From positions 467,044-531,043 of the forward strand of contig NZ_LMNX01000003.1 in assembly GCF_001423425.1 (NCBI RefSeq): a stretch of DNA of 64,000 bases, read 5' to 3'. Below the pieces are notes generated by a model that saw only the letters and a list, made by a program, of their open reading frames with translations, did no database searches and was not told where the DNA came from. Both the position numbers and the translations under genes were made by a program. Numbering within the stretch: position 1 is the first letter of the stretch; the number at the start of each line of letters is the position of its first letter. Below, piece after piece: positions 49,782 through 64,000 of the stretch. This DNA comes from Rhizobium sp. Leaf306 (GTDB lineage Bacteria > Pseudomonadota > Alphaproteobacteria > Rhizobiales > Rhizobiaceae).

Positions 49782-50345
49782 TCAAAGCGGCGAAAACGAC
49801 AAGGGGCGCAGTACGGTGTGCTGTCCTTCATACCCACCGACGAACCTCAACGGATCAGCGTGACGTGGAAGCAGGGCAAGAGGACCTTCTGTCGAACCGG
49901 AAAACGGCTCGAGCAGCGCGACCGCATCAGGCGGCGCATGGCCGGTCACCAATCCTGCACAGTCAGGGACAAACAAGGGCGTGCCTGCGGGCCGTGGGCC
50001 ATGCTGCCGGTGACGGTCGGCGACGGCCGTGTCGAAAACGGGTGATCCGCGCCCAAGCGTCGCCAGATAGTTGTGCTGCTGCAACACCATCGGGAAAGCC
50101 TGGGGGATGAAGCCGTTTACCCAAGCCTCTTCATTCGAGAGTGCGGCGCGGCATGCTTCGCGTTCAGCCCAGTCCGCATAGGTCCAGAGATGGTGGATCA
50201 CGTTCAGAGGGCCGGTTTCCGCCTGCCAGTAGCCGAGAAGTGGCAGGTGCCGTGTCACAAGTGGAAGCCCGAGGTCTGCAAGCAGCGCGAGGTACTCGCC
50301 GGTTGCGCCCGGCTTTAGCTGATAGGTTCGCCATTCGTGGATCAT
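49782..50345 (-). CDS. NIPSNAP-family protein
   Basis: A 187-residue protein with two ferredoxin-like halves as in NIPSNAP proteins: IHEWRTYQLKPGATGEYLAL at the start, LPLLGYWQAETGPLNVIHHLWTYADWAER (described by its ends), and LQQHNYLATLG. Bacterial members are small dimeric alpha+beta-barrel proteins, often next to catabolic genes, with unknown chemistry. The ATG at 50345 has GGGAGACGG upstream. It lies 85 bp after the AraC-type regulator in the same direction and probably belongs to the same transcript, linking it to the catabolic island. Confidence 0.85.
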   Translation of the reverse strand: MIHEWRTYQLKPGATGEYLALLADLGLPLVTRHLPLLGYWQAETGPLNVIHHLWTYADWAEREACRAALSNEEAWVNGFIPQAFPMVLQQHNYLATLGRGSPVFDTAVADRHRQHGPRPAGTPLFVPDCAGLVTGHAPPDAVALLEPFSGSTEGPLALLPRHADPLRFVGGYEGQHTVLRPLSFSPL

Positions 50346-50430
50346 CACCGTCTCCCATCGCGTCAGTCTGGCACGCCGGACCGGCCGCGAACATGGATAA
50401 GGTCTGCAAGAGATTGGACAATTGAGCCTA

Positions 50431-51330
50431 TCAGTTGTCGTGGCGTGCCGCCTGTTTGCGATAGGTCCCCGGAGAGATTCCGACACGCTGGGTAAAGAAG
50501 CGGTTGAAATAGGCGGGGTCGTCGAAACCGGTCATATGGGCCACCTGCGCGACGCTGCTCTCGGTATAGACGAGGTAGCGCTTGGCTTCCATCAACAGCC
50601 GCTCGTAGAGCAGGTCCGACGCGGTCTTGCCGGCGCGTGCCTTGCAGGCCGCATTGAGCCGCGCCTGCGTCGCCGCCAGCTCTTTCGCGTAGAAGGTCAA
50701 GGATCGCTCCGTCCGGAAGTGGCGCTCCAAGAGGGCCCTGTAGCGCAAAAGCAGATCATAACCCCGGTCTGGCGTGGATATACCGGTCTCGTCATGGGTG
50801 ATGTTGAGCCTCAGCACGATCACGAGCAGCCGCATGTAGTGCGCCATCATCGATATGCGCCGGCCGGGTGCCGACCAGATGAATTCCCGATGCAGCCAGT
50901 GAAACGTATCGACGACGGCCGGAATGCTGACGCCGGTTCCTTCGATCGGGTAGACTGCCGGTCTCGATGCGGCTGTTTCGAGCCGCGGGTCCGAGCTTGA
51001 CGCTGCCTTCAGGCAACCGAGTGCGGCCGTCACCACGTATCCGTCAGTCCCCGGATCAAAATCGATCTGGTGAACAATTCCGGCTGGAACGACCATGATC
51101 GCAGGCGCGGGTATGAATGAGATTTGATCCTCCATGCGGATCGTTCCACCCCCCTCTCTAACGAGCAGAACCTGCATGTGGTCCGGATGGGCATGCGGAC
51201 GAATTCTCCAATCGTTTGGCCCGCTGCGGTCACGCAAGGGTTCGATATGCAGGAAGTCCAGATCGACGTCGGCACCCTGATCGCCATAGAGATAGTAAAG
51301 CGGAATGCCGCCTGCGGCCAAGCTTCCCAT
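50431..51330 (-). CDS. AraC-family regulator, PobR-like
   Basis: A 299-residue activator. The N-terminal cupin-type sensor region (IRPHAHPDHMQVLLVREGGG, VVPAGIVHQIDF) binds the effector. The C-terminal double HTH shows LAATQARLNAACKARAGKTA and the second motif SVAQVAHMTGFDDPAYFNRF with FFTQRVGISPGTYRK. The N-terminal pattern and domain spacing resemble PobR-type activators of 4-hydroxybenzoate catabolism. It is divergent from the flavoprotein-SDR-SDR operon with 116 bp between starts, so that operon is its likely target. Confidence 0.9.
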   Translation of the reverse strand: MGSLAAGGIPLYYLYGDQGADVDLDFLHIEPLRDRSGPNDWRIRPHAHPDHMQVLLVREGGGTIRMEDQISFIPAPAIMVVPAGIVHQIDFDPGTDGYVVTAALGCLKAASSSDPRLETAASRPAVYPIEGTGVSIPAVVDTFHWLHREFIWSAPGRRISMMAHYMRLLVIVLRLNITHDETGISTPDRGYDLLLRYRALLERHFRTERSLTFYAKELAATQARLNAACKARAGKTASDLLYERLLMEAKRYLVYTESSVAQVAHMTGFDDPAYFNRFFTQRVGISPGTYRKQAARHDN

Positions 51331-51446
51331 GTGTCCTCCTCATTATCTCCCTGCCAAATAGTGCAACAATTGCGCGACGGCGTCCATTGGTCATCCCCGG
51401 TATGCGGGTTAGCAAGATCTCCATCAAACGCGACCGGGAGAAGCGG

Positions 51447-53156
51447 ATGGAGCCGAAGAGGGAGGAGGGGCACGTCTGTGACGTGCTGGTCGTCGGATCG
51501 GGCGCGGGAGGGCTTGCCACCGCGATCACGGCGAGGAAACACGGCCTGTCGGTCATCGTGATCGAGAAGGAGCCGGTATTCGGCGGCACGACCGCGTTTT
51601 CGGGTGGCGTGCTGTGGATACCTGGAAACCGGCACGGGAAATCGAACAACCCGAACGATACGCGCGACGCGGCGCGCCGTTACCTCAAGGCCGAGACCGG
51701 GAACTGGTTCGACGCGCAAACGATCGACGCGTTTCTCGAGGCCGGTCCGAAAATGCTCGACTGGTTCGAACGCGAGACGGTGGTGAAATTCGTCCCCACG
51801 CTTTACCCGGACTATCACCCGACGGTGGATGGCGGCGTCGATGTCGGGCGCTCGGTGCTGGCGGCGCCTTTCGACAGCAGCGTGCTCGGCAGCGATCTTG
51901 CGCGGCTGCGGCCGCCGCTCGGCTCGATCACGTTCATGGGCATGATGTTCAACTCGTCCAATGCCGATATCAGGCATTTCTTCAACGCCACCAAATCGCT
52001 GACCTCGTTTTTCTACGTGATGAAACGCCTTGTCGCGCATGCCGGCGAGGTTGTGCGTCACGGCCGCGGCGTCCAGGTCACGAGCGGCAACGCGCTGGCA
52101 GCGCGGCTGGCCGCAGCCTGTCTCGATCTCGATATTCCGATCCTGACCGATACGCCGGCGCTACGGATGACCAAGGACGGTGGTCGTATCACCGGTGTCG
52201 AGGTCGGTGGCGCGTCACCCGGCCGTATCGTCGCCCGGCGGGGCGTAGTCCTTGCCTGCGGAGGATATGCGCAGGATCTCGCGAGGCGAGCCGGGATCTA
52301 CGCCCATCTCAAGGCAGGCGGTGAGCATTTTTCGCCAGTACCGGACGGCAATACCGGCGACGGCATCCGTCTCGGTGAGGACGCAGGCGGCGCATTTGAT
52401 GCCGAATTCGCCCAGCCGGCCGCCTGGATGCCGATCAGCCGTGTGCCAGGCATAGGCTATTTTCCGCATCTGCTCGATCGCTACAAGCCGGGCATGATCG
52501 CCGTTCTGTCCAATGGCCGGCGATTTACCAATGAGAGCGAGAGCTACCACGATGTCGGCGCTGCCATGGTTGCGGCGGGCGAGGGGGGCGCGTGGCTGAT
52601 TTGCGACCATCGGGCGATCCGCAAGTATGGTCTTGGCCACGCAAAGCCGGCGCCGGTGCCACTCCTGCCGTGGCTACGGAACGGGTACCTCAAGAAAGGC
52701 AAGACGCTTGCCGATCTCGCCAAGGTCTGCGGGATCGATGCGACCGGTCTGGTGGCGACCGTGGCCGAATTCAACCGGGGCGCCAGGCAAGGCCTAGACG
52801 AACAGTTCCATCGGGGCGAGACGACCTTCAACCGATACCTTGCCGATCCCGACCACAAGCCCAACCCTTCGGTTGCGCCTGTGGAGCAAGGGCCGTTCTA
52901 CGCCGTCCGGTTGGAAATCGGCGACCTCGGAACGTTCGACGGACTGAAAACCACAGTGGAGGGCGCGGTCGTCGATCGGGATGGCCGGGTGATCGATGGC
53001 CTGTTTGCGGTTGGTAACGACCGGGCTTCGATCATGGGCGGCAATTATCCCGGTGCCGGGATCACGCTCGGCCCGGCAATGACATTCGGCTGGATCACCG
53101 GGCGCTATCTCGCAGGGATCGCACCGGCGGCGACGGGGGAGGGAGACGCGGCATGA
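51447..53156 (+). CDS. FAD-dependent dehydrogenase, 3-ketosteroid delta-1-dehydrogenase-like
   Basis: A 569-residue flavoprotein of the fumarate reductase/KstD superfamily. The FAD motif VVGSGAGGLATAITA begins near residue 15, followed by VIEKEPVFGGTTAFSGGVLWIP. The central substrate domain holds ATKSLTSFFYVMKRL. The C-terminal GGNYPGAGITLGPAMTFG carries Tyr534, matching in position the catalytic Tyr-Gly pair of KstD enzymes. These enzymes introduce a double bond next to a ring ketone. The ATG at 51447 is chosen because GGGAG lies seven bases upstream; earlier starts run into the regulator's promoter. The stop overlaps the SDR start by 4 bp. The ring substrate is not known to be a steroid. 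Confidence 0.88.
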   Translation: MEPKREEGHVCDVLVVGSGAGGLATAITARKHGLSVIVIEKEPVFGGTTAFSGGVLWIPGNRHGKSNNPNDTRDAARRYLKAETGNWFDAQTIDAFLEAGPKMLDWFERETVVKFVPTLYPDYHPTVDGGVDVGRSVLAAPFDSSVLGSDLARLRPPLGSITFMGMMFNSSNADIRHFFNATKSLTSFFYVMKRLVAHAGEVVRHGRGVQVTSGNALAARLAAACLDLDIPILTDTPALRMTKDGGRITGVEVGGASPGRIVARRGVVLACGGYAQDLARRAGIYAHLKAGGEHFSPVPDGNTGDGIRLGEDAGGAFDAEFAQPAAWMPISRVPGIGYFPHLLDRYKPGMIAVLSNGRRFTNESESYHDVGAAMVAAGEGGAWLICDHRAIRKYGLGHAKPAPVPLLPWLRNGYLKKGKTLADLAKVCGIDATGLVATVAEFNRGARQGLDEQFHRGETTFNRYLADPDHKPNPSVAPVEQGPFYAVRLEIGDLGTFDGLKTTVEGAVVDRDGRVIDGLFAVGNDRASIMGGNYPGAGITLGPAMTFGWITGRYLAGIAPAATGEGDAA

Positions 53157-53932
53157 GCTGGCTTGGACTGGAGGGAAAGACGGCCGTCATCACCGGCGCC
53201 GGAGGCGGCATCGGTCAGGGGCTGGCGCGCGCCTTCGCTGCGGAAGGTGTGCGGGTCGTGCTGCTCGACCGTGACGAGGCGCAGACGGCGTCGCTCGCTG
53301 CCGAACTGGGTATGGGTAGTTTCTCGCTCAAGTGTGATGTGTCGCGGGCAGACGACGTTGCCGCAGCGGCGGAGGCGGTCGAGGCGCAGGGAGGCGCTGA
53401 TATCCTCATCAACAACGCCGGAATTCTGCGGCCCGGCCCGCTCGAAAGCGTCTCCGAGGCCGACTGGTCGGCGATGCTCTCCGTCAACCTCACGGGTTGT
53501 CTCGTGACCGCGCAGGCGTTCGGTCGCGGCATGATGTCCCGTGGGCGGGGCGCATTGGTGCATGTGGCAAGCATCTCGGGCAGCCACCCTCAACCCGCAA
53601 GCGGCGCCTATTCCGCATCGAAGGCGGCGATCCTGATGCTGTCGCGACAGCTTGCCTATGAATGGGGACCGAAGGGCATCCGCTCGAACACGTTGAGCCC
53701 GGGACTGGTGCGCACGGCGCTTTCCGAAACCTTCTACGCCGATCCGCAGGTCAAAGCGCGACGCGAAGCCATGGTCCCCGTCGGCCGTATCGCAAGCCCC
53801 AAAGACCTGGCAGATACAGCCTTGTTTCTCGCCTCGCCGCGCGCATCCTACATCACGGGACAAGACATCCTCGTCGATGGGGGGCTGTCGCAATCGCTGA
53901 TGGGACTGGTACCGAGGCCTGGTTATGCGTGA
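53153..53932 (+). CDS. SDR-family oxidoreductase
   Basis: A 259-residue classical SDR: TGAGGGIGQG cofactor loop, DRDE after the second strand (an acidic end favouring NAD), NNAGIL, the SISGSHP Ser, YSASK catalytic pair and the YITGQDILVDGGLSQS C-terminus. Start and stop overlap both neighbours (4 bp with the flavoprotein gene, 8 bp with the next SDR). Oxidation or reduction of a ring alcohol or ketone made by the flavoprotein is inferred. Confidence 0.9.
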   Translation: MSWLGLEGKTAVITGAGGGIGQGLARAFAAEGVRVVLLDRDEAQTASLAAELGMGSFSLKCDVSRADDVAAAAEAVEAQGGADILINNAGILRPGPLESVSEADWSAMLSVNLTGCLVTAQAFGRGMMSRGRGALVHVASISGSHPQPASGAYSASKAAILMLSRQLAYEWGPKGIRSNTLSPGLVRTALSETFYADPQVKARREAMVPVGRIASPKDLADTALFLASPRASYITGQDILVDGGLSQSLMGLVPRPGYA

Positions 53933-54668
53933 AGCCCTCGTCACCGGCGGCGCCGACGGGATCGGCCTGGCAATTGCCCGAGCGCTTGCTCAAAGCGGCC
54001 ACCGCGTCACCATCGCCGATATCGACGGCGAAAAAGCCGCCGCGCGGGCGGCCGAATTGGGCGATGTCCATCGCGGCATGGCGTGCGATGTGACCGACGA
54101 GGCGCAGGTGGCCGCGGTAGCTGGTTCGGCTCCGTTCAGTGTGCTGGTCAACAATGCCGGGATCGGCGACAGCCACCTGCCAACGCTGGAGCAGGGGATC
54201 GAGGCTTTCCGGAGGGTGCTCGATGTGCATCTGGCCGGCACGTTTCTGATGTCGCGGGAAGTGGCGCGTGGCATGGTCGCGCGGGGCGATGGCGCAATCG
54301 TCAACCTGTCCTCGATTGCCGGACTGACCGGTCTTCCCAAGCGCAATGCCTATGGTGCTGCCAAGGCCGGGATTGTTGCCATGACGCGGGCGATGGCCTG
54401 CGAGTGGGCTGGGCGTGGTGTGCGGGTCAATGCCGTTGCGCCGGCTTTCGTGCAGACGGCGCTCGTGGAAAAGCTGGCGGCCGCAGGCCGGATCGATCTG
54501 CCAACGCTTCGCCGCCGCACGCCGATCGGGCGGCTGATCATGGCCGAGGAGGTAGCTGCCGCCGTGAATTTTCTAGCCTCTCCAGCGGCATCGGCGATCA
54601 CCGGCGTGGTGCTTCCGGTCGACGGCGGATGGGCCGCTTTCGGTGATTTCGGCGACGCGTCCCCTTGA
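53925..54668 (+). CDS. SDR-family oxidoreductase
   Basis: A 247-residue classical SDR with TGGADGIGLAIA, ADIDGEKAAA (acidic end of strand two), NNAGIGDS, SSIAGLTG, YGAAK and the SAITGVVLPVDGGWAAF ending. It is the third gene of the rightward flavoprotein-SDR-SDR operon. The operon ends here and converges with livF, 40 bp away. Two successive SDRs suggest two separate hydroxyl/keto conversions on one substrate. Confidence 0.9.
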   Translation: MREALVTGGADGIGLAIARALAQSGHRVTIADIDGEKAAARAAELGDVHRGMACDVTDEAQVAAVAGSAPFSVLVNNAGIGDSHLPTLEQGIEAFRRVLDVHLAGTFLMSREVARGMVARGDGAIVNLSSIAGLTGLPKRNAYGAAKAGIVAMTRAMACEWAGRGVRVNAVAPAFVQTALVEKLAAAGRIDLPTLRRRTPIGRLIMAEEVAAAVNFLASPAASAITGVVLPVDGGWAAFGDFGDASP

Positions 54669-54708: not shown

Positions 54709-55431
54709 TCAGGCGGCATCCTCGATGTGACCGCCGAGAAACAGCTGGCCGACACGCGGGTCATTGAGCAGCTTGTCCGACCTGTCGAACATCCGCGTCT
54801 GGCCGAGTTCCAGGACCAGACCATAATCGGACATGGCGAGCGCCGCCTTGGCATTCTGTTCGACCATCAGGATCGTCACGCCCTGGTCGCGCAGGCGGGT
54901 CAGCGTCTGGAACACCTCCTGCACAAGATTGGGGGACAGGCCGATCGACGGTTCGTCGATCAGGATCAGCTTCGGATCGAGCAGCAGCGCGCGGGCGATC
55001 TCAAGCTGTTTCTGCTGGCCGCCGGAGAGCTCGATTGCCTTCTGGTCCTTGCGCTGGCGCAGCATCGGGAACTGGTCCATGACCTGTTCCATCCGCATTT
55101 TCACCCGCGCCTGATCCTTGGCGGTGATGCCGCCGAGTTCGAGATTGTGCAGCACGGACAGTTGCGGCACGACATTGCGGCCCTGTGGCACGTAGGTAAC
55201 GCCACGGGTAATCATCTCGGCCGGGCGCTTACGCGTCACGTCCTCGCCTTCCAGGTGGATGGAGCCGGAATTGATGTTGAGCAACCCGAAGATCGCCTTG
55301 AACACCGTGGATTTGCCAGCGCCGTTCGGACCGATCACCGTGGTGATGGACGCTTTCGGTATGCTGAAAGACGTCCCGTTGAGGATTGTGATGCGGCCGT
55401 AACCGCCATTGAGGTTTTTCACTTCCAGCAT
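54709..55431 (-). CDS. LIV-type ABC transporter ATPase (LivF-like)
   Basis: A 240-residue HAAT-family ATPase: LNGGYGRITILNG at the start, Walker A GPNGAGKST, YVPQGRNVVPQLSV, signature LSGGQQKQLEIARAL, Walker B LILIDEPSIGLSP and MVEQNAK. It starts at the ATG at 55431 just after the LivG-like stop; a longer frame runs into that gene. It is the last gene of the leftward transport operon. Confidence 0.93.
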   Translation of the reverse strand: MLEVKNLNGGYGRITILNGTSFSIPKASITTVIGPNGAGKSTVFKAIFGLLNINSGSIHLEGEDVTRKRPAEMITRGVTYVPQGRNVVPQLSVLHNLELGGITAKDQARVKMRMEQVMDQFPMLRQRKDQKAIELSGGQQKQLEIARALLLDPKLILIDEPSIGLSPNLVQEVFQTLTRLRDQGVTILMVEQNAKAALAMSDYGLVLELGQTRMFDRSDKLLNDPRVGQLFLGGHIEDAA

Positions 55432-55432
55432 G

Positions 55433-56191
55433 TCAGCCTCCGAGATACGCGTCGATGACCAATTGGTTCGCCCGAATTTCATCCGGTGTCCCCTCGGCGA
55501 TGATCTCGCCCTGCGCCAGCACGATGACGCGGGTGCAGAGCGACATGACGAACTCCATATTGTGCTCGATGACCACGAAGGTTGTGCCGTGTTCGCGGTT
55601 GTAGGTGATCAGCCGGTCCTTGAGGTGCCCGAGCATGGTCAGGTTAACGCCGCCGGCCGGCTCGTCGAGAAGTACGATGCCGGGTCCCGCCATGAAGGCC
55701 ATGGCGGCATCCACCAGCTTTTGCTGGCCATAGGAGAGCGAGCCCGCCGGCGTATCGCGGTAAGGCGTCAACCGGAAGAACTCGATCAGCTGTTCGGCCT
55801 TCGTCGTCAGTCCGGCATCCGATTTGCCGAACAGGCGCGACAGCATCGAACCTTCGTGCTCCTGGCCGGCCACAATGACATTGTCGAGCACCGTCATGTT
55901 GGGGAAGACCGAGAGCTGCTGGAAGGTGCGGCCGACCCCCATCAGAGACAGGTCGGCAGGCCTTACGCCATCGGTGGACTTGCCGTTGATCTGGCAGTGC
56001 CCCTCGGTCGGCTTCGACTGGCCAAGAATGCAGTTGAACAGCGTCGATTTGCCCGACCCGTTCGGGCCGATCAATCCGAGGATTTCGCCTTTATGCACAT
56101 CGAAGCTGACCTGATGGACGGCACGGATGCCGCCGAACCGTTTCGAGATGTTGTGAACCGAAAGAATGACCTCCTGGGCCGCCGCATTCAT
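55433..56191 (-). CDS. LIV-type ABC transporter ATPase (LivG-like)
   Basis: A 252-residue HAAT-family ATPase: ISKRFGGIRAVHQVSFDVHK, Walker A GPNGSGKSTLFNCI, signature LSYGQQKLVDAAMAF (a Tyr variant common in LivG proteins), Walker B GIVLLDEPAGGVN, and the H-loop VIEHNMEFVMSL. The ATG overlaps the LivM-like stop by 4 bp. Confidence 0.93.
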   Translation of the reverse strand: MNAAAQEVILSVHNISKRFGGIRAVHQVSFDVHKGEILGLIGPNGSGKSTLFNCILGQSKPTEGHCQINGKSTDGVRPADLSLMGVGRTFQQLSVFPNMTVLDNVIVAGQEHEGSMLSRLFGKSDAGLTTKAEQLIEFFRLTPYRDTPAGSLSYGQQKLVDAAMAFMAGPGIVLLDEPAGGVNLTMLGHLKDRLITYNREHGTTFVVIEHNMEFVMSLCTRVIVLAQGEIIAEGTPDEIRANQLVIDAYLGG

Positions 56192-57162
56192 AGCTGGACT
56201 CCCTGTTTGAGGTCCCGGCGGGCTTCATGCTTGGGCCGGAACCTTTCCGCGAGTTTCTTGCCGGCCCCGATCAGGCCGGTTGGCGAAAACACCATCAGGA
56301 CGATCACCAGCGTCGAGTAGATGATCAGGTAATAGCCTTCCGTGAAGCGCAGCAGTTCCGGCAGGAGGATCACCACGGCGGCACCCAGCATCGGGCCGAA
56401 GAAGAAGCCCGAACCGCCGACCACCACCATCAGCAGGATTTTCAGGGAATGGATCAGTGCAAAGCTGCTGGGCTCGATGAACTGCACCAGCGGTGCCTGC
56501 AGCGCGCCGGCAAGACCGCCGAACGCAGAGCCGATGGCAAAGGCGAGCAGTGTCTGGCGTCGAACCTTAAGGCCAAGGCTTTCGGCGCGGATCGGATTTT
56601 CGCGCAGCGCCCTGAAGGCTCGCCCCCAGGGAGAGCGCAGGATCCACCACATGGCGCTAGCGGACACGACGAAGCAGACCAGCGTGAAATAGTAAAAGGC
56701 GATGTTGCTGTCGGTGGTGATGCCGAAAAACGACGGCCGGGGCATGCCGACAAGGCCGAACGAACCGCCGGTAATCTCTTCCTCGTTGCGCAGCACGAGG
56801 AACAACAGCGTGTTGAAGGCAAGCGTGACGAAGGCGAGGAAGTGGTGCTGAACCCGCAGCGCGGGGTAGCCGAGCAGCAAGCCGACCGCGAAGCTTGCTG
56901 CGATCGACACGATCACGGCCAGTCCCCAGTGAATGCCGTTGAGTGTCATCAGCGCGGTGATGTAGGCGCCGATGCCCATGAAGGCGGCCTGCGCCAGGCT
57001 GACTTGGCCGGCATAACCGAGCGTCAGGTTGAGACCCATGGCGGTGATCGAGAAAATCAGCCACGAGGCCAGCGTGTAGACAATGTAGTTGCCCTGGCCG
57101 ATCGGAGCGGCGACGAGGGCAGCAATACCCAGCAGAAGCAGAAACGGTTTCAGGCGGATCAT
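56188..57162 (-). CDS. LIV-type ABC transporter permease (LivM-like)
   Basis: A 324-residue polytopic permease. Hydrophobic helices cover most of the chain. Family landmarks are GLNLTLGYAGQVSLAQAAF, GYPALRVQHHFLAFVTLAF, SPWGRAFRALRENPIRAESLG (the ATPase-contact loop), and GGSGFFFGPMLGAAVVILLPE. The start overlaps the LivH-like stop by 4 bp. Confidence 0.93.
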   Translation of the reverse strand: MIRLKPFLLLLGIAALVAAPIGQGNYIVYTLASWLIFSITAMGLNLTLGYAGQVSLAQAAFMGIGAYITALMTLNGIHWGLAVIVSIAASFAVGLLLGYPALRVQHHFLAFVTLAFNTLLFLVLRNEEEITGGSFGLVGMPRPSFFGITTDSNIAFYYFTLVCFVVSASAMWWILRSPWGRAFRALRENPIRAESLGLKVRRQTLLAFAIGSAFGGLAGALQAPLVQFIEPSSFALIHSLKILLMVVVGGSGFFFGPMLGAAVVILLPELLRFTEGYYLIIYSTLVIVLMVFSPTGLIGAGKKLAERFRPKHEARRDLKQGVQL

Positions 57163-58037
57163 ACGGTTCTCCCTTCCGAGGTGCCGAGCAGGCCCTGCGG
57201 ACGCAAGAGGATGATGGCGATCAGCAGCAGAAGCGGCATGGCCGAGCGGTACTGGGCGGAGATGTAGACGGCTGACAGATTGTCGATCACGCCGATCAGC
57301 AGACCGCCGACCAGGGCGCCGCGGATCTGGTTGAACCCGCCGACGATGGCGGCGATGAAGGCGACGAGGCCGAGCGTTTCACCATTGGAAAACTTGGCGA
57401 GATAGATCGGCGAGATCAGCACCGAGGCCACGGTGGCAAGGCCGGCATTGATCAGAAATGTATAGAGCACCATGCGCTTGACGTTGACGCCGAGGATTTC
57501 GGCGACCGCCGGATTCTGGGCGCTGGCCTGCATGCATCGGCCGGTCCGTGTTCGGTTGAGAAACAGCTGCAGGCTGCCGATTGCGAGCATCGAGACAACG
57601 AGATTGCCGATATCTTGCATAGAAACGCTGGCGCCGGCGATCTCGTAGACCGTCTGCGGAAAGATCGCAGGGAAGGGCTGGGCGGTCGCGCCGTAAAATT
57701 CCTTGACGCTTTCCTTCATCAGGAGGCCGAGCGAAATGGTGGCGATGACCAGCGGCAGCGTTCCGTGCGGCAGCATCGGTTCGACGATCAGCCGCTTGAA
57801 GGCCACGCCGAGGATAAGAAGCGACAGCGCGAGCGCCAGCGCCACGGACGGCCATAGCGGCAGGCCAAACACTGTCATACCAACCAGCACGAAAAACGCC
57901 GGCAGCATGACGAACTCGCCTTGGGCAAAGTTGATGGTTTGCGATGCCTGCCACAACAGGGTGAAGCCGACTGCCGCAAGCGCGTAGATGGAGCCGGCGG
58001 CGAGACCGGAGACAATAATCTGGATAAACTCGGCCAT
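57159..58037 (-). CDS. LIV-type ABC transporter permease (LivH-like)
   Basis: A 292-residue permease with the LivH pattern: GLAAGSIYALAAVGFTLLWQ, TINFAQGEFVMLPAFF, a cytoplasmic loop TRTGRCMQASAQNPAVAEILG contacting the ATPase, and a GGFNQIRGALVGGLLIGVID helix pair. It follows the binding-protein gene after 101 bp containing a perfect hairpin. Confidence 0.93.
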   Translation of the reverse strand: MAEFIQIIVSGLAAGSIYALAAVGFTLLWQASQTINFAQGEFVMLPAFFVLVGMTVFGLPLWPSVALALALSLLILGVAFKRLIVEPMLPHGTLPLVIATISLGLLMKESVKEFYGATAQPFPAIFPQTVYEIAGASVSMQDIGNLVVSMLAIGSLQLFLNRTRTGRCMQASAQNPAVAEILGVNVKRMVLYTFLINAGLATVASVLISPIYLAKFSNGETLGLVAFIAAIVGGFNQIRGALVGGLLIGVIDNLSAVYISAQYRSAMPLLLLIAIILLRPQGLLGTSEGRTV

Positions 58038-58138: not shown

Positions 58139-59266
58139 TCAGTTCGGCGGCAGCACCGCCTGGACCACCTGTTTGCCGTTCTCGACTTTCACGACAAAGC
58201 TTTCGCGCGACATCTCGCCGGTATCGTCCCAACTCATATCCATCAGGACGCCGGGGTGCTCCTTGGCTGTCAGCTTGAGACCGTGCAGCTTTTCCGCGAT
58301 GGCCTTGCTGTCCGGCTTGCCGACCATTTCCGTGACGTATTTCAGCGTCCAGGCGGCGGTGTAGCCTTTGATGGCATTGTGGTCGGGCGTGTACTTGAAC
58401 TTCGTCTTGAAGCGCTCGACCATTTCCTTGACGGCGGGGATATCGGCATCGGGCGTCAGGCCGACATGGCCCATAGCGCCGTTGGCTGCATCGCCGGCAA
58501 GTTCGATGACCTTGTGGCCGATCAGAGTAGTTTCGCCGAGAAGGGGTTTGTTCAAGCCTTGCTTGCGGGCCTCGCGCAGGAAGCGGGCGCTTTCTTCCTC
58601 GGTGTAATAGATGAAGAAGGCTTCGGCAGTGGAGCCCTTCAGCTTCAGCACGTCGGCGGAAAAGTCAGCCTGCGCCTGTTCGGACGGCACATCGACGACG
58701 ATCTCGATATTGGCAGCCTTCATCGCATCGACGAAAGCCTTGTGGCCGCCCTTGCCGAATTCGGTATTGGCCCAGGCGACGCCGACCTTTTTCAGGCCCA
58801 TCGTCTCGGACATGTATTTGGCAAGTTTCGGCACGCCCTTTTGGGAGCCGAAGGCGGTGCGGAAGATGTAGGGGTTTTTCATGGCGACGATGGACGGAGC
58901 CTCGGAGCCGGTGAACTGCGGAATGCCGGCCTGACGCGCGACCAGCATGTTGACCACGGTTGATGACGAGAACACCGTTCCCATGATCGCGTAGATGCCG
59001 TCGTCGATACCCTTCTGCACCATGGCGCGCGAAACCTGTGGGTCGGTCTGGCTGTCATATTCCAGAACCTTGACCGGCTCCTTGAGAATGCCGCCCTGGG
59101 CATTGATTTCCTCAAAGCCCATCTTCACGCCATCGCGGAAGTTGGTGCCGGCCGCGGCACCGGGTCCGGACAACTCGACGATCGAGCCGACCTTCAGTTC
59201 GGCAAGCGCCGGCATTGCGCCGAGCGCCAGTACCATTGCAGTCGTGGTGATAAGTTTTCTGATCAT
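58139..59266 (-). CDS. LIV-type ABC transporter substrate-binding protein
   Basis: A 375-residue Peripla_BP_6 protein with a Sec signal (LITTTAMVLALGAMPALA). Then come KVGSIVELSGPGAAAGTNF, NAQGGILKEPVKVLEYDSQT, MGTVFSSSTVVNM, NTEFGKGGHKAFVDAMKA, and DHNAIKGYTAAWTLKYV. It is more distant from the LivK-like protein at 34416 than two Leu-binding proteins would be. Members of this family near aromatic or hydroaromatic gene clusters often bind aromatic or alicyclic acids. The ATG at 59266 has AAGGAGGAAGGTC upstream. It belongs to the leftward run of genes that starts at the flavoprotein at 62918. Confidence 0.9.
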   Translation of the reverse strand: MIRKLITTTAMVLALGAMPALAELKVGSIVELSGPGAAAGTNFRDGVKMGFEEINAQGGILKEPVKVLEYDSQTDPQVSRAMVQKGIDDGIYAIMGTVFSSSTVVNMLVARQAGIPQFTGSEAPSIVAMKNPYIFRTAFGSQKGVPKLAKYMSETMGLKKVGVAWANTEFGKGGHKAFVDAMKAANIEIVVDVPSEQAQADFSADVLKLKGSTAEAFFIYYTEEESARFLREARKQGLNKPLLGETTLIGHKVIELAGDAANGAMGHVGLTPDADIPAVKEMVERFKTKFKYTPDHNAIKGYTAAWTLKYVTEMVGKPDSKAIAEKLHGLKLTAKEHPGVLMDMSWDDTGEMSRESFVVKVENGKQVVQAVLPPN

Positions 59267-59382
59267 GACCTTCCTCCTTGGCTGATCGATATTTCCGTCC
59301 CGGCGGCCAGGTCTCCTCCCTTGTCGCCGTATCCTCATGCCCGGGCGTAGACCCGGGCCTGCGGTGTCTTCGTCTCGATCGC

Positions 59383-60195
59383 CTAGGCGTCGATCGTGCG
59401 TGTCCCCATCAACAGATCGGCCAGCAGCACGGCCTGGGCGTCGAACATGCCTGACCCGGACATGGTGCCGCAGCCCTTGTCGCGGGCAGCAGCAATCAGC
59501 GGCGGCACGGCCGGTCGCGTCACGACGTCCGAGACGAACTGGTCTGAGGTCAGAAGATCCGTCTGCACCGGCAGGGGATCGGTCTCCCGCATGCCAAGTG
59601 GCGTGGCATTGGCGACGAGTGCAAAACCGCGTGGATCTGTTGAGCCTATCCGCGCACGACCCGGAAATGCCTTGTTCAACTGCGCGATCAACGCATCGCG
59701 TTTGTGCGTGTCGAGATCGTGCAGGGCCAGTTCCGAGGCGCCGCGTGCCAGGATTTCGTAGGCGATGGCCGCTCCGGCGCCGCCAGTACCCACCAGAAGC
59801 GCAGACTTGCCGGCGATCTCGAAGCCTTGGGCCGCGATACCGTCAAGGCAGCCGTGTCCGTCGGTTGCGTCGCCCACCCAGTCGTCGCCATCGCGGGTCA
59901 TGATGTTGACGGCGCCAGATGCCTTTGCGCGGGCCGATATGCGGGCGCAGAATTCGAGGCAGGGGACTTTGTGCGGTACCGTGACAATGATGCCCGCGAC
60001 ATTGCGCATGCTCTTTGCCTGCGACAGCCAGCCGGCCAGGTCTTCGGGGAGAATATGGACCGGTGCGACGATGCCGTTAAAGCCGCGATCGGCCATGATC
60101 TGGCTGAGCGAAGCGGGCGATTTCACCTGTCCGATCGGATGGCCGATGATCGGGAAGAGCTTGGTCTCCCCATCGACCTTTATATGTATATTCAC
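59383..60195 (-). CDS. Shikimate/quinate dehydrogenase-family protein (AroE-like, catabolic type)
   Basis: A 270-residue AroE-fold enzyme. The catalytic lysine Lys76 (VTVPHK) and Asp112 (ATDGHG) are kept, and the cofactor loop is GTGGAG. Two features differ from biosynthetic AroE. The substrate loop reads GHPIGQVKSP, so the first of the two usual serines is replaced by Val24. After strand two the protein has HDLDTHK (Asp160), an acidic end that favours NAD, as in catabolic quinate/shikimate dehydrogenases. Together these argue for a degradative role on a hydroaromatic acid. It lies between the binding-protein and epimerase-like genes on the same strand. Confidence 0.85.
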   Translation of the reverse strand: MNIHIKVDGETKLFPIIGHPIGQVKSPASLSQIMADRGFNGIVAPVHILPEDLAGWLSQAKSMRNVAGIIVTVPHKVPCLEFCARISARAKASGAVNIMTRDGDDWVGDATDGHGCLDGIAAQGFEIAGKSALLVGTGGAGAAIAYEILARGASELALHDLDTHKRDALIAQLNKAFPGRARIGSTDPRGFALVANATPLGMRETDPLPVQTDLLTSDQFVSDVVTRPAVPPLIAAARDKGCGTMSGSGMFDAQAVLLADLLMGTRTIDA

Positions 60196-60303: not shown

Positions 60304-61191
60304 CTATTCAACACCGGCGGTCTCCTTCAGTTCGGCCAAGGCCCGGGCGATGCCGTTGCTGACGGTCGTGACAGGCTGATTGCCGAGGAGGTGTGGCACC
60401 GGGTCCGACGCCAAATTGGCGGGAATACGCAAGGGCGGCCCGCTGATCCGGATCTCGTTCCAGCCGGACTGGTGCCTGAGTTCGGCGACAAAATCGGTCA
60501 TCTCCACCGTATCGCCGGCCATGGTCAGAACGGTCGCTCCTTCCAGCGGCACTGTCATCGCGGTCGACAACATCTGTGCCACGTCGTCCACGTAGACGAA
60601 GCCGACGCGGCCGGAAAAACGGATTTCAGCCGGTTCGCGGCGCACGGCGGCTCCAAGCGCGATCGACGGACCAGCCGCGATGCCAGCGCTTTCGCCGGGG
60701 CCGTAGACGATGTAGGGGCGAAGGCCGAGGCTCGGGATGCCGTGGTCGAGCAGATAGGCCCGCGCCATGCCTTCGACCGCAAGCTTTGTCGCCCCATAGA
60801 CCGTCATCGGCCTCGGATTGACGGCATCGTCGAGTCCGAACACGCCGGCCGAACTCAGATAGGCAATCGGTAGGCGCTTTGCCTTTGCCGCCTCGAACAC
60901 GTTGATGCTGCCTAGAAGATTGACGCGCGTGCCGAGCGCCGGGCTGCGGGCACAATCGACCGTCATCAGGCCGACGAGATGGACAATTCCGTTGCATCCA
61001 TCGGCAGCTTTCGCCACCGCGGCGGCATCGGTGATGTCGCCCGAGACGATCTCGACGCCATCCATGACGGATAGTCGTTCCGGCTTGGGAGCTAGGTCAA
61101 AGATCCGGACCCGGTGCCCGGCCGCCTGCAATGCCCTGACGGTTCGCAGGCCGACGAAGCCGGTTCCGCCGGTCACAAGGACGAGGCTCAT
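60304..61191 (-). CDS. NAD-dependent epimerase/dehydratase-family protein (extended SDR)
   Basis: A 295-residue extended SDR. The N-terminal VTGGTGFVGLRTVRAL binds NAD(P), YLSSAGVFG supplies the catalytic Ser, YGATK the Tyr-Lys pair, and LRPYIVYGPG follows as in sugar epimerases and related dehydrogenases. Substrate is unknown. Its stop is 108 bp before aroE-like, and its ATG overlaps the stop of the upstream flavoprotein gene by 4 bp, so it belongs to that operon. Confidence 0.88.
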   Translation of the reverse strand: MSLVLVTGGTGFVGLRTVRALQAAGHRVRIFDLAPKPERLSVMDGVEIVSGDITDAAAVAKAADGCNGIVHLVGLMTVDCARSPALGTRVNLLGSINVFEAAKAKRLPIAYLSSAGVFGLDDAVNPRPMTVYGATKLAVEGMARAYLLDHGIPSLGLRPYIVYGPGESAGIAAGPSIALGAAVRREPAEIRFSGRVGFVYVDDVAQMLSTAMTVPLEGATVLTMAGDTVEMTDFVAELRHQSGWNEIRISGPPLRIPANLASDPVPHLLGNQPVTTVSNGIARALAELKETAGVE

Positions 61192-62918
61192 GCAGCTTTC
61201 CCCTTGCGAGCAGCGACGGCGCGGCGGGCTGCATGACGGGCGGCGATGGCCCCGAACACGATAGCCGGGCCAACCGTGATGCCTGGGCCGGGATAGACCC
61301 CGCCCATGATCGACTGCAAATCGTTGCCGCAGGCGTAAAGGCCTGAGATCGCCGATCCGTCGCGCCGCAGAAGCTGGGCATTTTTGTCGCCGACCAGGCC
61401 TATGGCCGAGCCGATATCGCCAGGCCAGAGTTTGACGGCATAATAGGGAGCCGTCTCGAGCGGCCCGAGCGTCGGATTGGGCCCATGCGTCGGATCGCCA
61501 TTGGCCTTTTCGTAGACGGTGGTGCCGCGGGCGAAATCGGCGTCCGTGCCGGTCCTTGCATAGGCGTTCATCCTAGCCACGCTGTCGTTCAGGCCGGCAG
61601 CGTCGATGCCGAGCTTGCTGGCGAGTTCGTCGAGCGTCGCAGCCTCGGTCAGGTAACCATCGGCGAGGAATGGTGCGATGTTTGCCCCGCCGGGTCGGAT
61701 CATCCCCATGCCGTATGTCTTCAGCGCCGTAGCGTCGGCAATCAGATAGGTGGGCACATGGCTGCCATCCTTGTTCGCCGCATACATGGCCGACACAAAC
61801 AGGTGGTAGCTGGTGCTTTCGTTGACGAAGCGACGCCCGTCGCGGCCGACCGAGATGATGCCGGGCTTTGAACGGTCGAAGACGAAATGCGGGAAAACCG
61901 CCATCGAGCCATCGGCGCGCTTCCGATGCGAGACCGGCGCCCAGAAACACGGCTGCGCCGCCATGTCGCCGTGATAGGCCCCGGCGGTAAAGGCCAGATC
62001 ATGCAGCGTGCCCGTATGGCCGGGGGCAGACGGACTGAATTCGGGCAGCGGTTGCGGCAGCTTGTCTGCCCGCATGGTCGGGTGACGGGCAAAGCCGCCG
62101 GAGGCGAGGATCAAACCGCCCGTGACGTGAATCTGCCGTTCGGTATCCTTTTGACGGAGTGTCACGCCTGTTACGCCGTGAGGCCCGGTCGTGAACGCCA
62201 ATGCCTCGGTTTCGGTGAGGATGGTGACCCCGAGCTTTCGCGCGGCAAGCAGCATCCTGCCGATGAGAGCATTGCCCATCACCAGCCGCGTTCCGCGGCC
62301 ATGGCGGATCTTGTCCAGGTAGTAATGTCCGATCAGTCGAGCCGAGTAAGCGGTCGACTTCGCCGATTTGCCGATTCTCATCAGATGGGCGATGTCGTCA
62401 CGGTCCACCATGAGGCCGCCGAGAATAGTAAATTCCGGGATGGGCGGACGGATGAGATGCAGGTCTTTCCCGAGCGCCGATGCATCGAACGGCAAAGGTT
62501 CGAGAGCCCGCCCGAAGGACGTGGCGCCCTCGAGCTCGTAAAGATAGTCGGGGTGAAACGGGCGCGCACGGAATTTGACGTCCGTTTTGTCTTCCAGCGC
62601 ATCGACCACACCTGTCCCGGCTGCAACAAACGCATCGCGCACGGATTTGGAGCTGTGGTTGCCGACAGCGCGATCGAGAAAGCCTGAAACCTTATCGCGG
62701 CTGTCGTCGGCACCCATTGCCTGCGCGTGACGGGTAAGCGGGATCCACGTGGTCGCGGCGGAATAGGAGGTCGTGCCGCCGAGATATTTGGTGCGCTCGA
62801 CCAAAAGGACACGTGCGCCTTCCATTGCGGCAAAGATGGCGGCAGACATGCCTCCTGCGCCAGCTCCCAGTACGACGACATCGTAATCCGGCCCGACCTC
62901 CGTCAATGCATGTTGCAT
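61188..62918 (-). CDS. FAD-dependent dehydrogenase, 3-ketosteroid delta-1-dehydrogenase-like
   Basis: A 576-residue flavoprotein paralogous to that at 51447. The FAD loop VVLGAGAGGMSAAIFAAMEG is followed by LVERTKYLGGTTSYSAATTW. The C-terminal GGVYPGPGITVGPAIVFG carries Tyr542, placed as the catalytic Tyr of KstD enzymes. The middle region (FTILGGLMVDRDDIAHLM) aligns with its paralogue but differs in detail, so the two may act at different steps. The ATG at 62918 is preceded by GGGAGGATTGCC. It is the first gene of a leftward run that continues through the epimerase-like, AroE-like and LIV transporter genes. Confidence 0.88.
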   Translation of the reverse strand: MQHALTEVGPDYDVVVLGAGAGGMSAAIFAAMEGARVLLVERTKYLGGTTSYSAATTWIPLTRHAQAMGADDSRDKVSGFLDRAVGNHSSKSVRDAFVAAGTGVVDALEDKTDVKFRARPFHPDYLYELEGATSFGRALEPLPFDASALGKDLHLIRPPIPEFTILGGLMVDRDDIAHLMRIGKSAKSTAYSARLIGHYYLDKIRHGRGTRLVMGNALIGRMLLAARKLGVTILTETEALAFTTGPHGVTGVTLRQKDTERQIHVTGGLILASGGFARHPTMRADKLPQPLPEFSPSAPGHTGTLHDLAFTAGAYHGDMAAQPCFWAPVSHRKRADGSMAVFPHFVFDRSKPGIISVGRDGRRFVNESTSYHLFVSAMYAANKDGSHVPTYLIADATALKTYGMGMIRPGGANIAPFLADGYLTEAATLDELASKLGIDAAGLNDSVARMNAYARTGTDADFARGTTVYEKANGDPTHGPNPTLGPLETAPYYAVKLWPGDIGSAIGLVGDKNAQLLRRDGSAISGLYACGNDLQSIMGGVYPGPGITVGPAIVFGAIAARHAARRAVAARKGKAA

Positions 62919-63057
62919 GTGGCAATCCTCCCAAAAGACGAGACAGACCAATCTTCTATGGCCACCATCACAAATAATGGAATGACATTCAAGAATAAAA
63001 ACCAGTTCCATTTTCGTTATTCGTCTGATACCTCACATTCGATCGGGGAGGATTTGG
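62919..63057. promoter_or_regulatory. Divergent promoter region of flavoprotein and Gfo/Idh genes
   Basis: This AT-richer stretch of 139 bp separates two divergent starts and must hold both promoters. Each gene has its own strong ribosome-binding site (GGGAGG and GGGGAGG). No clear operator dyad was identified. Confidence 0.55.
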
Positions 63058-64000
63058 ATGGGACGTGTAATCGACATTGCGGTAATTGGTGCCGGTGCCA
63101 TCGGCCGTACGCATATCGATACGCTGGCCGGAATGCCCCGTTTTCGCCTGACCTCGATCGTCGACCCGATGCCGGCGGGAGCTGTTCTCGCCGCCTCGCT
63201 CGGCATTCCCTGTCTTCTTTCCGCAGAGGCGTTGATCGATTCGGGTCTCGCTCGCGCGGCGATCGTTGCTACGCCGAACGAGACGCATCTCCCCGTATCC
63301 GAAGCTTTGTTGCGGGCCGGTATTCCTGTGCTTCTGGAAAAGCCGGTCGCCGAAAGCCTGGCTTCGGCGCTGAGGCTGATCGCGATTGCCGACGAGACCG
63401 GTCTGCCGCTTCTGATTGGCCATCACCGCCGCCATAACCCGATCATCCGCGCAGCCCATGCGGCGGTCCATGCCGGCCGGATTGGCGATCTGGTGATGGC
63501 GACCGTGACCTGTTCGCTGGCCAAGCCGGCCGGATACTTCGAGGCCGCGTGGCGCAGAACTCCGGGAGCCGGCGGGCCACTGCTGATCAACATGGTCCAT
63601 GAAATCGATCTGCTGCGGCATTTCTTCGGCGAGATTGCGCACGTCCAGGCGATCGCCAGCCATGCGCGCCGCGGGTTCGCCGTCGAGGATACGGCGGCGG
63701 TCAATCTCTCCTTCGTCAATGGCGGGATCGCGACCCTGTGCATATCCGATGCAGCGGTCGGCCCCTGGGCCTGGGACCTGACAGCGGCGGAAAATCCGGC
63801 ACGCTTTCCGGCTCATCCGGTAACCGCCCATCATTATGCCGGCAGCAAAGCTGGCCTCTCGCTGCCCGATCTGACGCTCTGGGAACCGAAGGGCGAGCCG
63901 GACTGGACTGAGAAGTTGCGGCCGACCGTACTCGATGCCATCCAGGCCGACCCCTACGAGCGGCAGCTTTCCCATTTTGCCGATCTGATCGATGGGTCAG
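63058..64000 (+). CDS. Gfo/Idh/MocA-family oxidoreductase, partial at the window end
   Basis: At least 314 residues, open to the window edge with no stop. The N-terminal NAD(P) loop is VIGAGAIGRTHID, followed by VATPNETHLPVSEALLRAG and the LLEKPVAES motif, which holds the catalytic Lys of the family. The HEIDLLRHFFGE segment supplies the conserved His. Such enzymes oxidise or reduce sugars, inositols and cyclic polyols. GGGGAGGATTTGG precedes the ATG. Divergence from the flavoprotein operon places it in the same island; oxidation of a ring hydroxyl is a reasonable guess. Confidence 0.88.
   Translation, partial: MGRVIDIAVIGAGAIGRTHIDTLAGMPRFRLTSIVDPMPAGAVLAASLGIPCLLSAEALIDSGLARAAIVATPNETHLPVSEALLRAGIPVLLEKPVAESLASALRLIAIADETGLPLLIGHHRRHNPIIRAAHAAVHAGRIGDLVMATVTCSLAKPAGYFEAAWRRTPGAGGPLLINMVHEIDLLRHFFGEIAHVQAIASHARRGFAVEDTAAVNLSFVNGGIATLCISDAAVGPWAWDLTAAENPARFPAHPVTAHHYAGSKAGLSLPDLTLWEPKGEPDWTEKLRPTVLDAIQADPYERQLSHFADLIDGS

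Follow-up and report, generated by a model that had tools for sequence, protein, structure and literature searches.

A RifI2-like member of the shikimate dehydrogenase family linked to KstD-like flavin enzymes in Rhizobium sp. Leaf306, with a proposed role in hydroaromatic acid catabolism

The window, a stretch of 64,000 nucleotides from Rhizobium sp. Leaf306, contains an AroE-like gene surrounded by genes for an importer, several oxidoreductases and regulators (Table 1). The plus strand of the interval 59383-60195 is interrupted by stops in that frame, so the AroE-like gene lies on the minus strand. It likely forms one minus-strand operon with fadB, the epimerase-like short-chain dehydrogenase (SDR) gene and the genes for the binding protein, the two permeases and the two ATPases. 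The true start of FadB may be at about 62918, by our estimate. No inverted repeat was found near the divergent promoter (62880-63120). To the right of the Gfo/Idh gene, outside the window, follow a gene for an IclR-type regulator (matches below cut-off), fadC, a second NIPSNAP gene and pobA, the last scoring 658.2 bits against a cut-off of 538.7. Among solved structures, the best matches of the binding protein are leucine-type proteins, which are uninformative about the ligand of the importer. At the left end of the window, positions 160-1377 hold two ORFs that resemble, by eye, an IS3-type transposase pair.

Table 1. Genes of the cluster around the AroE-like gene, in window coordinates.
Feature	Positions	Strand	Basis
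NIPSNAP protein	49782..50486	-	PF07978
AraC-type regulator	50431..51330	-	HpaA model 130.5 bits, below cut-off 274.65
FadA, KstD/ChcC2-like FAD dehydrogenase	51216..53156	+	matches start near ORF residue 80
SDR1, short-chain dehydrogenase	53153..53932	+	
SDR2, short-chain dehydrogenase	53925..54668	+	ChcB2 model 202.8 bits, below cut-off 350
Liv-type ATPase, LivF-like	54709..55482	-	profile matches
Liv-type ATPase, LivG-like	55433..56191	-	profile matches
Liv-type permease	56188..57162	-	PF02653
Liv-type permease	57159..58037	-	PF02653
Liv-type substrate-binding protein	58139..59338	-	PF13458
AroE-like (RifI2-like) dehydrogenase, 270 aa, GTG start	59383..60195	-	PF08501, 4k28, alignment, tree
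NAD-dependent epimerase-like extended SDR	60304..61191	-	PF01370
FadB, KstD-like FAD dehydrogenase	61188..63011	-	PRK12843 822 bits, cut-off 758
Gfo/Idh/MocA oxidoreductase	63058..64000, past window end (L007 1102-2199)	+	

The substrate-binding domain PF08501 matches the AroE-like protein (hereafter the window protein) with 59.7 bits, above the cut-off of 27. Among solved structures, PDB 4k28 is the nearest in sequence (E 1.4e-39, 37% identity), and we take it to be RifI2 of Pseudomonas putida. As judged from such scores, the match to the shikimate dehydrogenase family is far beyond chance. The window protein is 25% identical to both E. coli AroE and E. coli YdiB, and 26% identical to the AroE of its own genome. 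It stays below every curated aroE cut-off that it matched (best 133.5 against 252 bits; TIGR00507, 132.1 against 200.2). It also falls far short of the cut-offs for YdiB and NAD quinate dehydrogenases (NF009390, 60.7 against 349 bits; NF010631, the NAD quinate/shikimate model, 81.4 against 515). The motifs of biosynthetic AroE are missing, Val-Lys-Ser standing for Ser-x-Ser and Asp160-Leu-Asp for Asn-Arg-Thr, and those of 4k28 are present: the QVKSP loop, a Thr at the Tyr215 position and an Asp after strand 2. The window enzyme is a new member of an already known branch. RifI2 reportedly favours NAD as cofactor, turns over shikimate weakly and acts on quinate in traces. A conserved Asn193 is reportedly named in the abstract of the RifI2 study, and the 4k28 chain has an Asn at 193, counting along the sequence.

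Residues of the pocket and the cofactor site were compared in an alignment of 67 proteins, including E. coli AroE, E. coli YdiB, the canonical AroE of the same genome and 4k28. In AroE, the carboxylate of the substrate is bound by Ser14, Ser16 and Tyr215. Val24 of the window protein lies opposite Ser14, and Thr226 opposite Tyr215; at these two positions, Ser and Tyr are present in E. coli AroE, in YdiB and in the canonical AroE of the genome. Ile70 lies opposite an Asn (Asn59) in both AroE proteins. Asp160 replaces an Asn in all three, which belongs to Asn-Arg-Thr in the AroE proteins and to Asn-Arg-Arg in YdiB. Ser26, Lys76, Asn97, Asp112 and Gln254 are common to the window protein, both AroE proteins and YdiB, so that the catalytic Lys and Asp, together with Asn97, are in place. 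The sequence-only reading had described Val24 as replacing a carboxylate-binding Ser, Lys76 and Asp112 as retained, and Asp160 as following strand two, and all three descriptions hold in the alignment. The exchanges at Ile70 and Thr226 are further alterations of the pocket that it had left unmentioned. A structure prediction from a four-row alignment gave a poor model (mean pLDDT 55), in which strand 2 ends at residue 160.

The window protein resembles E. coli AroE and its own AroE in fold family and catalytic residues, but is without their Ser14, Asn59, Tyr215 and NADP-type Asn-Arg-Thr. It resembles YdiB and QsuD in its proposed catabolic role and proposed use of NAD, whereas YdiB keeps the Ser and the Tyr at two of the altered positions. 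In 4k28, the positions of residues 24, 70, 226 and 160 are occupied by Val, Val, Thr and Asp, so that the site of Asn59 is hydrophobic in both proteins, and the Lys, Asn, Asp and Gln are kept. An acidic residue at the Asp160 position favours NAD. The window protein is predicted to be NAD-preferring as well, the one feature behind this prediction being the Asp in common with 4k28.

Relatives of the window protein were found in 44 of 385 genomes of the class at E 1e-40 and in 20 of 397 genomes of the order at E 1e-70, the window's own genome being included in both counts. The neighbourhoods of 62 relatives were compared. They comprise 40 of the 48 places from the class search, all 19 places from the order search other than the window, and loci from Ciceribacter naphthalenivorans (L003), Paracoccus shandongensis (L004) and Rhizobium sp. 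R635 (L005). The places left out of the 48 are the window's own gene and seven others (G127, G339, G195, G178, G351, G303 and G109). Several loci are short contigs (e.g. L109, 3.8 kb), in which an absence means little.

In a tree of the aligned proteins, AroE and YdiB are split from the other 64 rows with support of 99/98. Support is lower (89/88) for the set of 28 rows in which 4k28 joins the window clade. RifI proper lies outside the rows of the tree. 4k28 pairs with L070 (100/99) on a branch separate from the window clade. The window protein is nested in a set of four (100/100) and then of seven (99/92), all of which are flavin-linked. The next set out contains ten rows (99/98) and adds three QuiC-linked ones (L005, L041 and L106).

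The residue profile is highly conserved in the clade. Among the 26 rows that include the window protein, position 24 is Val in all 26, position 160 is acidic in all 26 (Glu in four, otherwise Asp), and position 226 is Thr in all 25 that are readable. The Val24/Asp160 profile occurs in 4k28 and throughout the clade and is therefore, in sequence terms, a family trait and not peculiar to the window gene. Loss of Gln254 (E. coli Gln244) was considered as a cause of altered specificity and rejected, as it marks a neighbouring sub-clade and the window clade keeps the residue. In that sub-clade (L042, L110, L111, L112, L113, L118, L119, L122 and relatives), all 14 rows have another residue (Leu, Val, Glu, Ile, Ser or His) in place of the equivalent of Gln244. 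The replacement hints at a substrate without the hydroxyl that the Gln is thought to bind.

The genome contains only two members of the shikimate dehydrogenase family, the window gene and G000:C6:99104. The latter is a canonical aroE: its protein scores 424.7 bits against the NF001312 cut-off of 295 and carries the Ser-x-Ser loop and Asn-Arg-Thr, and the gene is flanked by apparent maf and coaE-dnaQ, as read by eye. The separate biosynthetic aroE for which the sequence-only reading had suggested a search is thus present. That reading had also judged the profile degradative rather than biosynthetic, and this view is supported by the separate aroE, by the low scores against curated aroE models and by neighbours that fit catabolism. 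It is further backed by the many close relatives that adjoin KstD-like desaturases and QuiC or QuiC-like barrels.

In KstD, the residues Tyr119, Tyr318, Tyr487 and Gly491 take part in desaturation adjacent to a ring ketone. All four have identical equivalents in FadA and FadB in the alignment; FadC has a Phe at the position of Tyr119 and keeps the others. All three proteins also resemble the cyclohexanecarboxylate desaturases ChcC1 and ChcC2 in matching the ChcC2 model, but their scores (FadA 544.7, FadB 413.1 and FadC 509.5 bits) fall below its cut-off of 900. FadB passes the cut-off of PRK12843 and FadC that of PRK06134, both functionally unnamed FAD families.

FadB was searched for in 24 selected whole genomes with AroE-like genes, namely the 23 available clade genomes and G586. 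An ortholog of at least 49% identity is present in 13 of the 24, and every one of these orthologs is located no more than 4.5 kb from the AroE-like gene. The remaining 11 genomes, searched at E 1e-100, gave no FadB match exceeding 45%; they include G703, in which a copy of 43% identity is located about 3 kb from the AroE-like gene. Chance does not account for the linkage between FadB and the AroE-like gene. Of the 26 clade loci, 16 (counting the window) have a FadB relative of about 42% identity or more in their flanks, versus 0 of 37 other AroE-like loci. These counts, like those of the barrels below, were tallied by eye and reproduced identically by a script; Fisher values computed for them treat related genomes as independent and are descriptive. 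The FAD gene of L004, counted among these relatives, is just 42% identical, and one of the 37 other loci (L123) has a single FadB match of 27%.

For most of its length, the window cluster has a nearly collinear counterpart in both L003 and L105. SDR2 is missing from L105, where a barrel gene follows the second NIPSNAP gene. Matches to the binding protein (56-77% identity) adjoin the AroE-like gene in L003, L004, L005, L041, L105, L106, L107 and L108. The importer of the QuiC-type loci L005, L041 and L106 is closely related to that of the window, with identities of 77-84% for the ATPases, 68-72% for the permeases and 56-58% for the binding protein. Among the flavin-type loci, the window genome, L042 and L107 are the only ones in which PobA was seen; several other loci end too soon to tell, and none was found within the 19.9 kb of L105.

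In L115, L117 and L120, a conserved flavin monooxygenase-like gene adjoins the AroE-like gene about 10 kb into each locus (the L115 copy shares 91% identity with that of L117 and 95% with that of L120), and the AroE-like proteins have a His at the Gln254 position. This neighbour suggests that the three loci serve a different pathway, and the clade is thus not of one function. In L058 (G051:C2), QuiC occurs together with an AroE-like gene and a relative of the window's importer; the AroE-like protein of this locus has Ile-Arg-Met instead of Val-Lys-Ser.

QuiC or a QuiC-like barrel is found in the flanks of 19 of 26 clade loci versus 3 of 37 other AroE-like loci; in one of the 19 (L114), the barrel is about 7 kb off, beside a second AroE-like gene. 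Two of the barrels, searched against NCBIfam, match QuiC best, albeit weakly, with 33.7 bits for L004 and 40.5 bits for the copy in the window's genome against a cut-off of 1200. The best solved matches of the L112 barrel are Lmo2234 (E 5.7e-10) and QuiC 5hmq (E 0.005). The active site of QsuB comprises Glu134, Asp165, His168, Gln191, Ser206, Arg210 and Glu239, as given in PMC7442255. By motif spacing, three of four aligned barrels match the genome's own QuiC at all these listed residues other than Ser206, where the three have an Ala. The fourth has a His in place of the Gln.

A rival reading is that of an ordinary quinate/shikimate dehydrogenase, which like the YdiB and QsuD types would deliver 3-dehydroquinate or 3-dehydroshikimate to AroQ and QuiC, the flavin enzymes serving other compounds. 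The three nearest sister rows outside the flavin-linked set are linked to QuiC, and Gln254 is retained in the window clade. Within the class, L071 and L123 have aroQ next to the AroE-like gene. In a search of the phylum at E 1e-45, the 4k28 sequence found relatives in 11 of the 398 genomes, and nine of the 11 belong to other classes. The neighbourhoods of these nine include a nearly full-length QuiC (42-45% identity) in five and a partial one (30-34%) in two, and aroQ alongside the AroE-like gene in two (L144 and L145). The nearest genome relative of 4k28 found (L141, 61%) has no match to KstD-like enzymes, QuiC or aroQ in its 19.9 kb.

The window's own genome also has a quiC and a second aroQ, but in a separate place. 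The dehydratase linkage seen in many relatives is absent from the window's own flanks, as no QuiC or QuiC-like barrel was found in L006 or L007. The quiC gene (C3:390747) and the QuiC-like barrel gene lie about 134-146 kb from the window cluster, in a stretch that also encodes a type II dehydroquinase (C3:385396), a Gfo/Idh protein and an epimerase-like protein, the last 44% identical to that of the window. This stretch (L124, G000:C3:380500-400400) holds both a QuiC-like barrel and a full QuiC, and by eye an aldo-keto reductase-like gene and an amino-acid-type ABC importer. It lacks an AroE-like gene, as follows from the genome-wide search, and its quinate/shikimate dehydrogenase might be the Gfo/Idh protein or the aldo-keto reductase. 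That this QuiC/AroQ cluster does without the AroE-like gene, that FadB is linked to such a gene in all 13 genomes with a close ortholog, and that two carboxylate-contacting residues are exchanged together make an ordinary quinate/shikimate dehydrogenase unlikely.

We instead consider it fairly probable that the window protein, as a member of the branch of 4k28, uses NAD to dehydrogenate an imported hydroaromatic acid, i.e. a cyclohexane- or cyclohexenecarboxylic acid. For the cofactor, the substrate and the order of steps, we infer the following scheme. The Liv-type importer would bring in the hydroaromatic acid. Lys76 and Asp112 would oxidise a ring hydroxyl by the chemistry of AroE, with Asp160 holding the NAD ribose. 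The exchange of Ser14 for Val and of Tyr215 for Thr, which would remove two carboxylate-side contacts, would fit a substrate with a C1 end unlike that of shikimate. The ring ketone would then be desaturated beside the carbonyl by FadA, FadB and FadC, dehydrated by QuiC or QuiC-like enzymes, or both. The product would be protocatechuate or 4-hydroxybenzoate, which PobA and intradiol dioxygenases would feed into the β-ketoadipate pathway. The genome contains three intradiol dioxygenase genes, two of which are adjacent (C1:1458605-1459788) and are read as pcaGH.

More tentatively, the cluster as a whole may carry out a flavin-coupled aromatisation of saturated hydroaromatic acids, which would be reduced counterparts of shikimate or quinate, e.g. 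di- or trihydroxycyclohexanecarboxylates. In this possible pathway, the AroE-like enzyme would generate the ketone, the KstD-like enzymes would introduce double bonds as in steroid ring A, and a QuiC-like step or tautomerisation would complete the aromatic ring.

Some neighbours could be read otherwise. The Gfo/Idh protein, a xylose-isomerase-like barrel and NIPSNAP might belong to 3-keto-glycoside or inositol chemistry, which would make the window protein a dehydrogenase of a glycoside or cyclitol pathway. Some members of the family reduce keto sugars, among them a relative of known structure, the 5-ketofructose reductase 7cok, and the Gfo/Idh protein matches inositol dehydrogenase models (below cut-off) and, weakly, DgpA-type C-glycoside enzymes. 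The KstD-like enzymes and PobA, however, fit aromatic products, and the barrels point towards QuiC, two by their best, if weak, matches and three by aligning at the QsuB residues listed in PMC7442255, except Ser206; a glycoside or cyclitol pathway is accordingly most improbable. A biosynthetic or secondary-metabolic enzyme, either a second AroE or an aminoshikimate dehydrogenase (RifI proper), would agree with family membership and with the naming of RifI2 after the rifamycin enzyme, but is hardly credible beside a canonical aroE in the genome and annotated neighbours that are importer, oxidoreductase and regulator genes.

Data on the mechanism and specificity of minor members of the shikimate dehydrogenase family are limited, according to PMC7144000. 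Among the matches listed in a literature search that covered few subscription journals, none paired shikimate-type dehydrogenases with KstD-like enzymes. The residue pattern described here is already known from 4k28, and the flavin-coupled cluster may be a variant that is perhaps undescribed. The natural substrate of RifI2-like homologs appears unsettled, and linkage to KstD-like and QuiC-like enzymes provides a short, testable list of candidates. It is the conserved association with KstD-like desaturases that merits an experiment. If true, flavin-coupled aromatisation would assign a physiological role to the RifI2-like branch and would provide soil bacteria with an additional route from saturated ring acids to aromatic ones.
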